This document shows positions 54,170 to 55,570 of a DNA stretch of 64,000 nt, piece by piece (the stretch's first letter is position 1; each line of letters starts with the position of its first letter). The notes under the pieces were generated by a model that was not told the DNA's origin, ran no database searches, and saw only the letters and a list, made by a program, of their open reading frames with translations. The DNA is from an uncultured Ruminococcus sp. (GTDB lineage: Bacteria; Bacillota; Clostridia; Oscillospirales; Ruminococcaceae). The translations under genes were made by a program, and so were the position numbers. The stretch lies in NCBI GenBank assembly GCA_949291125.1, contig CASEUJ010000018.1, positions 124,001-188,000 of the forward strand, given 5' to 3'.

Positions 54170-55093
54170 ATGATACAAACTGCCGAACTGGACAGACTCA
54201 ATCAGTTGACTGCAACAGATCCTACCGCCATGCAGCGTGCAAACGAAGCATTTTTAGAAACAGCAAAATCCATCGCCGCTTATATCCAGAAAAATGCCAC
54301 AACGCGTCCGATCATTCTTCTCTCCGGGCCATCTGGATCGGGAAAGACTACGACTGCCTATCTGATCGAACGCTGTCTGGATGATTGGAATATGGAAACG
54401 CATACCCTGTCAATGGATCACTTTTTTCGCACCATGACCCCACAACAGCGCGACCTTGCTGCACAGGGAAAGCTGGACTTAGAGTCGCCAGAACGGCTGG
54501 ATATCCCCTATCTGAACCAACAGCTGCACGGCATCATTGCCGGAAAGCCGACATGGATGCCGAAATATCACTTTTCGACCACCACGCGGGAAGATCATGA
54601 CTGGCTTTTGACACGAAAGCCGCGCGAACTTCTGATCTTAGAGGGCATTCACGCCCTGAATCCATCGGTCATCCGCATCCCGGATGCATTCACGATCCGA
54701 ATCTTCATCAGTGTACAGACCTGTGTGACAGCACATGGGACGACCCTTCTGCCGGAACATCTGCGTCTGATCCGGCGAATGATCCGCGACCGCAATTACC
54801 GCAGCCGGGATTTTGCCGAAACACTAAAGATGTTCGAGCACGTGCAGGAGGGTGAGCGCAACTATATCACACCCTATGAAGAGCGCGCAATGTTCTCTGT
54901 AGACACATTTGTACCATATGAGCTTGGCGTGTATCGCCGCGTCCTAGGAAGTGAATTCCAGTCAGTGCGCAATCATCCGCTGATGCAGCCGCTTTCGGCA
55001 ATGTGGGATGAGATTGTGCCGCTTTCTCCCGAAAATGTTCCAAAAGATTCCCTGGTGCGAGAATTTCTGGGCGGAAGCGTGTTTTGCTACTAG
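54170..55093 (+). CDS. Uridine kinase-like P-loop kinase
   Basis: A 307-residue protein. A short N-terminal region (about 45 residues) precedes a phosphoribulokinase/uridine-kinase domain: P-loop LSGPSGSGKTTTAYL, the MDHFFRTM segment, LDIPYLNQQL, and LLILEGIHALNPSV. It lacks the TGS/threonyl-tRNA-synthetase-like N-terminal domain found on many clostridial nucleoside kinases of this type. The start at 54170 has a weak AGGTG site. Its stop codon TAG overlaps the left edge of the MITE-like element: TA is the target dinucleotide and G the first base of the element. Confidence 0.85.
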   Translation: MIQTAELDRLNQLTATDPTAMQRANEAFLETAKSIAAYIQKNATTRPIILLSGPSGSGKTTTAYLIERCLDDWNMETHTLSMDHFFRTMTPQQRDLAAQGKLDLESPERLDIPYLNQQLHGIIAGKPTWMPKYHFSTTTREDHDWLLTRKPRELLILEGIHALNPSVIRIPDAFTIRIFISVQTCVTAHGTTLLPEHLRLIRRMIRDRNYRSRDFAETLKMFEHVQEGERNYITPYEERAMFSVDTFVPYELGVYRRVLGSEFQSVRNHPLMQPLSAMWDEIVPLSPENVPKDSLVREFLGGSVFCY

Positions 55094-55223
55094 AACGTGT
55101 TCACATAAAACAAATGTGCAGATCTCTGAGTAGAATTTTCACCGATACAAGGCAAAATTTTTCACATCGTAGCAGTGAAACTATACCGAAAATACATATA
55201 TACGTTTATGTGAACACGCTCTA
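55091..55223. mobile_element. MITE-like element with TA target duplication
   Basis: A 129-bp element (55093-55221) with terminal inverted repeats: the left end GAACGTGTTCACATAA and the inverted right end GAGCGTGTTCACATAA match at 15 of 16 positions, and pairing extends further in. TA flanks both sides (55091-55092 and 55222-55223). Removing the element and one TA rejoins TAC TAA, which restores an ordinary TAA stop for the kinase gene. It has no coding capacity, so it must move with a transposase from elsewhere; TA duplication suits IS630/Tc1-mariner-type transposases (inference). Confidence 0.75.
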
Positions 55224-55234
55224 AAGCCAGTTTC

Positions 55235-55570
55235 TCACCGAAGAAACCGGGTGAGCAACAAAATCAACCCGTTTATCGCATAGGAAATCAATGCGGCGCA
55301 GAGATAGTTGCGCCCGGCACGCACACGGTGATTCGAAAAAGCAATGATCGCAAGGATCAGACCGACCAACGGCAGAAGAAATGATAACACCACAAGCCGC
55401 TTGCTGCTGGGGGTCGTCGCCTGAGGGACCACAGTTTCATCTTTCCCGGACACCTGATAGATTTCATCCATTTCCTGTGCCATTTCGTGCATTTCGTTTT
55501 GCAGGCAGTCATCACAGATGCCATCCGCATTCCGGGTCGGCTATCCGCATTGTTTACAGTTTACGTTCAT
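55235..55570 (-). pseudogene. Zinc-ribbon membrane protein gene interrupted by an in-frame amber codon
   Basis: Reading from ATG 55570 (AAGGAG 8 bases upstream) the frame gives a zinc ribbon MNVNCKQCG, then TAG (55541-55543), then PTRNADGICDDC and a polar stretch, then two membrane helices (about residues 60-110 of the full frame) ending in LLLTRFLR. Both CxxC pairs of the ribbon are present on either side of the TAG. AAG to TAG is a single base change, and Lys is common at this place in such ribbons. The rest of the frame is intact. The internal ATG at 55492 has no ribosome binding site. Either it is a very recent pseudogene, a read-through gene, or a sequencing error. Confidence 0.75.

Follow-up and report, generated by a model that had tools for sequence, protein, structure and literature searches.

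The window, the whole 64,000-nucleotide stretch analysed here, contains a neat but ordinary MITE insertion at the end of a kinase gene, and the element inserted belongs to a family whose organisation seems to reverse the usual MITE pattern. MITEs usually have constant ends and a free middle; in this family it is the middle that is conserved and structured, and the ends that vary. The insertion in the window is real and was correctly read in the initial annotation except for the transposase family, and the conserved structured core with changing ends is the part worth following. The window copy very probably arose when a MITE of IS5 type, mobilised in trans, inserted into the TAA stop of the kinase gene at a Y-TA-R target, with duplication of the TA. 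The family is multicopy, its ends are common with those of an 824-bp IS, its TA flanks show a Y-TA-R preference, and a syntenic empty site is present in a relative; from these observations we infer an IS5-type transposase as the mover and the order of events given below.

An element at the kinase stop codon

The MITE-like element occupies 55091-55223, with 129 bp between two TAs and 133 bp including both, as initially annotated. Its left end (55091-55109) reads TAGAACGTGTTCACATAAA, and the reverse complement of its right end (55205-55223) reads TAGAGCGTGTTCACATAAA. These terminal inverted repeats are identical at 18 of 19 positions when the TAs are counted, and the previously reported match of 15 of 16 positions, which leaves the TAs out, is correct. 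They form the sole pair of 19-mer inverted repeats in the 64-kb window with at most one mismatch and starts 60 to 250 bp apart, and no 19-mer inverted repeats of equal quality occurred in any of 10 shuffles of the window in two-base blocks. DNA folding of 55085-55230 gave z = -3.86, with 0 of 200 shuffles as good. At 133 bp including its TAs, the element is too short to hold any transposase gene, in agreement with the claim that it has no gene of its own. It has the features of a MITE: it is short, lacks a transposase gene, carries terminal inverted repeats, has dispersed copies and ends common with an autonomous IS, and shows a target duplication by way of an empty site in another species. 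Alignment with a full-length relative shows it to lack 30 consecutive bp after 55156 and 2 bp at other positions. Full-length family copies measure ~165 bp, and the window copy is a worn, internally deleted member of this family. Coordinates of all features are collected in Table 1.

Table 1. Features of the insertion site and its flanking genes in the window
Feature	Positions	Strand	Remarks
P-loop kinase, 307 aa, phosphoribulokinase/uridine kinase family	54170..55093	+	PF00485, E 3.7e-19; last 3 bases are the rebuilt TAG
Left TA (target duplication, left copy)	55091..55092		With 55093 forms the TAG stop; G006 empty site has a single TA
Left terminal inverted repeat, GAACGTGTTCACATAAA	55093..55109	+	
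Hairpin core remnant; 30 bp with inner hairpin gone after 55156	55110..55204	+	Alignments
Right terminal inverted repeat, reverse complement GAGCGTGTTCACATAAA	55205..55221	-	
Right TA (target duplication, right copy)	55222..55223		With 55224 forms the ancestral TAA
Convergent 85-aa ORF, other side of insertion site	55235..55492	-	G006 homologue in the same place (tblastn 40% identity, E 7e-18)

The TAG stop of the kinase gene (55091-55093) takes its first two bases from the left TA and its third from the G of the element, as had been claimed and as the kinase frame of 54170-55093 bears out. Joined through one TA, the flanks read TGC TAC TAA AGC, which supports the earlier reading of TAA as the ancestral stop. 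Because the element starts with G, the kinase protein is unchanged and its gene now ends in TAG.

Besides the window's own genome, 8 of the 16 genus genomes have an orthologue of the kinase; the 3′ end is readable in 7, and one runs off its contig. A profile search of all orthologous loci found the element confined to the window's own kinase locus, and it was absent from the 7 orthologous 3′ ends, for which the stops and up to 157 bp downstream were read. The closest orthologue, in G006 (kinase 64% identical), reads TTT CAT TAC TAA with one TA, and there the kinase is followed by a homologue of the window's convergent 85-aa gene. This syntenic locus is the TACTAA empty site for which a search in a sister strain had been proposed, found with both flanking genes in place in a sister species: G006 is of the same genus and a different species, at species rather than strain distance. 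The kinases of G004 and G001 also have Tyr as their final residue, but their stop is TGA. Since the stops among the 7 readable orthologues comprise three TAA and four TGA, the ancestral reading TACTAA rests on one close orthologue. As to the claim of a precise TA-target insertion, the TA duplication and the empty site speak for it; the rebuilt stop, which had been offered as evidence of precision, adds little.

The same comparison bears on the alternative that the sequence is a conserved 3′ untranslated region of the kinase gene, a terminator or regulatory hairpin with no insertion involved. Its strong hairpin potential and its location between convergent genes would suit such a region, but the sequence is missing at all 7 orthologous loci whose 3′ end could be read, copies occur at unrelated loci across the genus, and no terminator-like site lies inside the element, the one in the region being at 55295-55314. 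We regard this alternative as extremely improbable. The initial annotation had named a single copy without an empty site, or conservation as a normal 3′ untranslated region, as findings that would tell against an insertion, and neither holds.

Beyond the convergent 85-aa ORF, the minus strand at 55493-55570, upstream of that ORF, encodes a Cys-rich, zinc-ribbon-like start with two C-x2-C pairs. The frame is interrupted by an in-frame TAG, perhaps because the gene is disrupted or the assembly is in error.

Distribution of the family

Searched with at most 2 mismatches, the 19-bp end gave 69 matches in 8 of the 16 genus genomes, including 42 in G003 and 5 in the window's own genome, and the reversed control gave 0. 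As a DNA query, the whole window element matched only 3 of 60 relatives, its own genome included, because most copies have diverged. The R1 sequence model, derived from 16 copies, detected the family in 11 of the 16 genus genomes (E <= 0.001), with up to 140 matches in one, counts that are rough since palindromic copies can match on both strands and no more than 150 candidates were scored per genome. The window's own genome holds nine distinct family places at E <= 1 (the weakest at E 0.003) as well as an additional 58-bp pair of ends on contig C38. Within the window's taxonomic family, 22 of 197 genomes matched R1. A second model (R2), built from an alignment (A2) of 21 representatives from different genomes and subfamilies, matched 25 of 295 genomes across the order (E <= 1e-6), representing 18 of 149 genera and eight families; many of the weaker matches span the core only. 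Twenty places outside the genus, from 11 genomes of the window's family and five others, were fetched for inspection.

Whole or partial copies were also present in 11 faecal scaffolds labelled Bacteriophage sp. (MT835604.1, MT837732.1, and nine more), the three records examined being marked unverified. Over the aligned part they are 92 to 100% identical to the G017 type, so human gut samples contain the family, and its movement may be recent. For three of these copies empty sites were sought, and the flanks were found in no other record spanning the site; two exact patterns had 0 matches in viral contigs. One compound repeat of G001 exists in an empty version (L063), which was set aside because its flanks differ by substitutions. 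A multicopy repeat of G001 other than this family hosts nested family copies (L063, L130, and L131). The family is apparently undescribed: among the papers listed by searches of a mainly open-access literature, none was seen to describe it or constant-core MITEs with exchanged ends.

An IS5-type element with matching ends

A single pair among the 69 end matches is spaced as in an IS. This 824-bp element (G015:C43:5520-6343), from a sister species and present in one complete copy, has TA on both sides and ends that each differ from TAGAGCGTGTTCACATAAA by one mismatch; it is thus an autonomous IS with nearly the same ends, of the kind the initial annotation had suggested looking for. It contains an ORF encoding a 139-aa N-terminal part, overlapped by a second open frame 145 codons long. 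The proteins match Pfam DUF4096 and DDE_Tnp_1_2, with PF13340 and PF13586 above their cut-offs. Against NCBIfam transpos_IS5_3 (NF033580) the IS scored 110.1 bits in the genome search, where the cut-off is 110, while the two ORFs scanned apart scored 107.1 and 72.6 bits, both below that cut-off. By these matches the IS encodes an IS5-type DDE transposase. The first ORF has plasmid relatives in 2117 records, all below 60% identity, and several of the best are annotated as IS5 family transposase.

The IS427 group of IS5 duplicates a 2-bp TA target, and 3-bp TNA duplications are known for IS5 subgroups and not for IS630. Because the IS with window-type ends carries DUF4096/DDE_Tnp_1_2 and matches transpos_IS5_3, the evidence from these sequence matches points to the IS5 family (IS427-like) rather than to IS630/Tc1. 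Members of the IS427 group have two overlapping ORFs with a frameshift motif, according to the accessible text of PMC3281130. The initial annotation had attributed the movement to an IS630/Tc1-mariner-type transposase. TA on both sides would fit that assignment too, and RUP, proposed to use IS630-Spn1 and TA (accessible text of PMC2229807), provides a precedent, but the transposase encoded by the only complete IS we found with these ends is split and of the IS5 family (IS427-like), and 3-bp TNA duplications occur in further subfamilies of this MITE. The attribution to IS630/Tc1-mariner is therefore unsupported, and we consider it very unlikely.

The window's own genome retains an IS5-type transposase remnant (L072, G000:C14:26457-26525; 23 residues, 74% identity, E 5e-6), which may once have supplied the mobilising enzyme. 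A search of the same genome for an intact IS5-type transposase gave 0 matches to NF033580 and 0 to PF01609, and since the assembly is 87% complete, a missing match is no proof of absence. An IS partner for the TNA-type ends was sought with PF01609 in 6 genomes, which gave 10 matches. Nine of these loci together with L201 showed no MITE-like end pair except that of the known G015 element, and among the end types only the window type has been matched to an IS.

For the window copy we propose that the GARCGTGTTCACATAAA ends of the element were recognised by a transposase of the IS5 family (IS427-like) acting in trans. The enzyme would then have inserted the element at a Y-TA-R target, by chance the kinase's TAA stop, with duplication of the TA, and the first base of the element, G, would have left the kinase ending in TAG with its protein unchanged. 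In the window's own genome the mobilising transposase would by now be lost, decayed, or unassembled. Counted against this scenario is that a single complete IS with these ends was found and that it comes from another species.

Target sites and stop codons

Target sites were read from 85 copies with flanks, consisting of 20 high-scoring places each from G001, G015, G007, and G003 plus 5 from the window's own genome, a sample that favours well-preserved copies because high-scoring places were chosen. Further copies with TA flanks, which had been anticipated, were found: TA was present on both sides of 26 of the 31 TA-type copies, and in 23 of those 26 the target was Y-TA-R. Among 48 TNA-type copies, 45 were scorable and 30 had the same three bases on both sides (TTA in 17, TAA in 13). 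Six of the 85 copies fell outside these two groups. Type-B copies L116, L118, L121, and L126 of G001 adjoin a short palindrome of the GAACnnGTTC kind, perhaps a terminator or else remnant ends that served as a target.

When the TA of a Y-TA-R target forms the first two bases of a codon, that codon is always TAA or TAG, and insertion of an element beginning with G always leaves TAG. Stop rebuilding is thus automatic, given such a target and such an element, and the window copy shows why a stop codon is a safe place for an element with a Y-TA-R or TNA target to land. We compared insertions exactly at stop codons with the sites available, taking as genes mechanically called ORFs of at least 80 codons and excluding the 11 of 56 clean insertions that lie inside called ORFs (7 TA type, 4 TNA type). 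Five of 19 non-coding TA-type insertions were at a stop (5.3 expected; P 0.78), as were 5 of 26 non-coding TNA-type insertions (3.9 expected; P 0.31); pooled, 10 of 45 clean non-coding insertions lay at stop codons versus 9.2 predicted by target availability. A special preference for stop codons was rejected, since the observed counts match the available sites, and the fair reading is recurrence at stops without preference. One orthologous gene in two species (~70% DNA identity) had the same stop codon hit by L117 (G001:C8) and L185 (G003:C78), copies of different subfamilies in opposite orientation. Orientation toward tandem genes was unbiased (19 versus 21; P 0.87).

A common core with changing ends

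Across the 21 representatives of A2 the core is common and the ends differ. The end types in this set are GAGCGTGTTCACATAAA (the window type), GGGCGTGTTGACACTAA, GAACTTGTTCTCATAGG, GAACCTGTCCACATAGA, GAACCTGTCTTCACAAG, GAGCCTGTTTAGTATC, and GAACCTGTTCCCATAGG. Mean pairwise identity within the family is 0.65 and 0.60 for the two ends and 0.72 for the core, a modest contrast. The outermost ten left columns, at 0.78, are above the core mean, and the worst kept stretches (0.43 to 0.54) lie just inside the ends; the best core blocks reach 0.94 and 0.85, and one core stretch has an identity of 0.54.

The contrast between core and ends is sharper outside the genus family set. Ends unlike the IS5 type were found in G354 (GGAACCTCTGAATAAATC), G456 (GGAGTCTCTGATTAAATG), G308 (TTAGGGCGTTTCTGAAAAC), G375 (AAGGGATTGCCGCATAATTC), and both G383 and G101 (GTTTTTACG), some of these outside ends coming from an inverted-repeat scan and some being read by eye. 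Family-like ends are retained in G309, G350, G445, and G036, and none were recognised at the core fetched from G255. The cores of L234-L237 (G383) and L245-L246 (G101) are framed by GTTTTTACG/CGTAAAAAC or close variants. Several copies in these two genomes precede a tRNA T-loop-like stretch, e.g., GGGTTCGACTCCCGCATGCC, and ARAGORN called no tRNA at these stretches.

If the family does reverse the usual MITE pattern, it would allow tests of how non-autonomous elements change from one transposase to another and of whether a hairpin or an RNA can be the unit kept by selection in a mobile element.

Structure of the core

Among 27 cores from across the order (A3), changes on both sides occur in 26 of 28 pairs, and 91.7% of cells are paired versus 68.8% for shuffled sequences and no more than 46.4% for slid pairings. 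The family set gives changes on both sides in 30 of 45 core pairs, and there 91.9% of cells are paired, compared with 79.2% after shuffling and a maximum of 52.4% after sliding. The CAAG and (A)CGCAG stretches, which stay unpaired, are conserved; each occurs twice, and they face each other in opposite order. With core orientation set by homology to the plus strand of the window rather than by energy, the forward strand is the better RNA fold in 20 of the 21 representatives, the window copy being the exception, in 76 of the 85 copies, and in 18 of the 20 fetched from outside the genus. The nine reverse-folding copies among the 85 include three of the five from the window's own genome, the window copy among them. 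Alifold on A3 gave -28.0 kcal/mol for the forward strand versus -13.0 kcal/mol for the reverse.

These patterns raise the possibility, which we find doubtful on present evidence, that the family is foremost a mobile structured-RNA module, with a ~100-nt core selected as a one-strand RNA, replaceable terminal repeats, and the window copy as a dead derivative. The covariation in 26 of 28 core pairs over 27 sequences, the conserved unpaired loops, and the forward-strand advantage in all three sets of copies and in the alifold energies argue for it. DNA-level upkeep of a palindrome can yield covariation too, however, and the representatives are related by descent. Furthermore, copies are unoriented relative to tandem genes, a promoter-like site is absent from the one 501-bp region scanned, and for three of the five own copies, including that in the window, the reverse strand gives the better fold. 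Counted in five groups of at least 6 copies each, the private mutations of resident copies also show no bias toward G-U over A-C, either in cores (82 versus 70; P 0.37) or in ends (44 versus 61; P 0.12). These counts give no sign that individual copies are currently selected as RNA; any selection there is acts on spreading copies and not on resident ones.

The RNA reading concerns the family and does not exclude the IS5-MITE explanation of the window copy. Stated for the core, our tentative proposal is that a ~100-nt hairpin, in which two oppositely oriented internal loops of like composition (CAAG opposite CGCAG) bound a freely covarying stem, could be a persistent mobile unit kept as a one-strand RNA and refitted repeatedly with different, partly unrelated ends that would match different resident transposases. 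The spread of the hairpin unit extends to up to eight bacterial families by model search, of which five besides the window's own were inspected. Rfam gave no match in the window at gathering score and, for 21 further loci at E <= 1, no near-threshold match over an element; the sole match over an element was MIR5048 on L229, at 19.2 bits versus a threshold of 160. In the main text of PMC8040213, a survey from 2021 that covers structured RNAs of human microbiomes, neither transpos- nor Ruminococc- occurs.

Comparison with known systems

One of the closest known systems is IS5/IS427 itself, represented by the G015:C43 element, which is like the window element in its terminal repeats and in having TA on both sides. 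The IS has a split DUF4096/DDE transposase, whereas the window element has no transposase; by eye, only the terminal repeats are common to the two, and the core is without an evident counterpart in the IS. RUP, a pneumococcal element of 107 bp for which use of IS630-Spn1 has been proposed, is likewise a MITE with TA targets and ends matching a resident IS, as described in the accessible text of PMC2229807. It differs in that its IS is an IS630 and not an IS5, and a constant core with exchanged ends is not part of that description.

The Correia/NEMIS elements of Neisseria, compared by their description in the same text (PMC2229807), have forms of ~107 and 155 bp that differ by an internal 50 bp, with TA ends and long stem-loop transcripts. 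They resemble the window family in size range, TA ends, stem-loop, and internally shortened forms, and differ in that the description does not include a set of end types on one core. ERIC/IRU, a 127-bp enterobacterial repeat with stem-loop transcripts, TA at its ends, and a target duplication (accessible text of PMC2229807), is like the window element in size class, TA ends, and target duplication. That comparison is by description rather than by sequence and is with an element of other bacteria; in contrast to ERIC/IRU, the window family has an IS with matching ends, and its terminal repeats vary between subfamilies.
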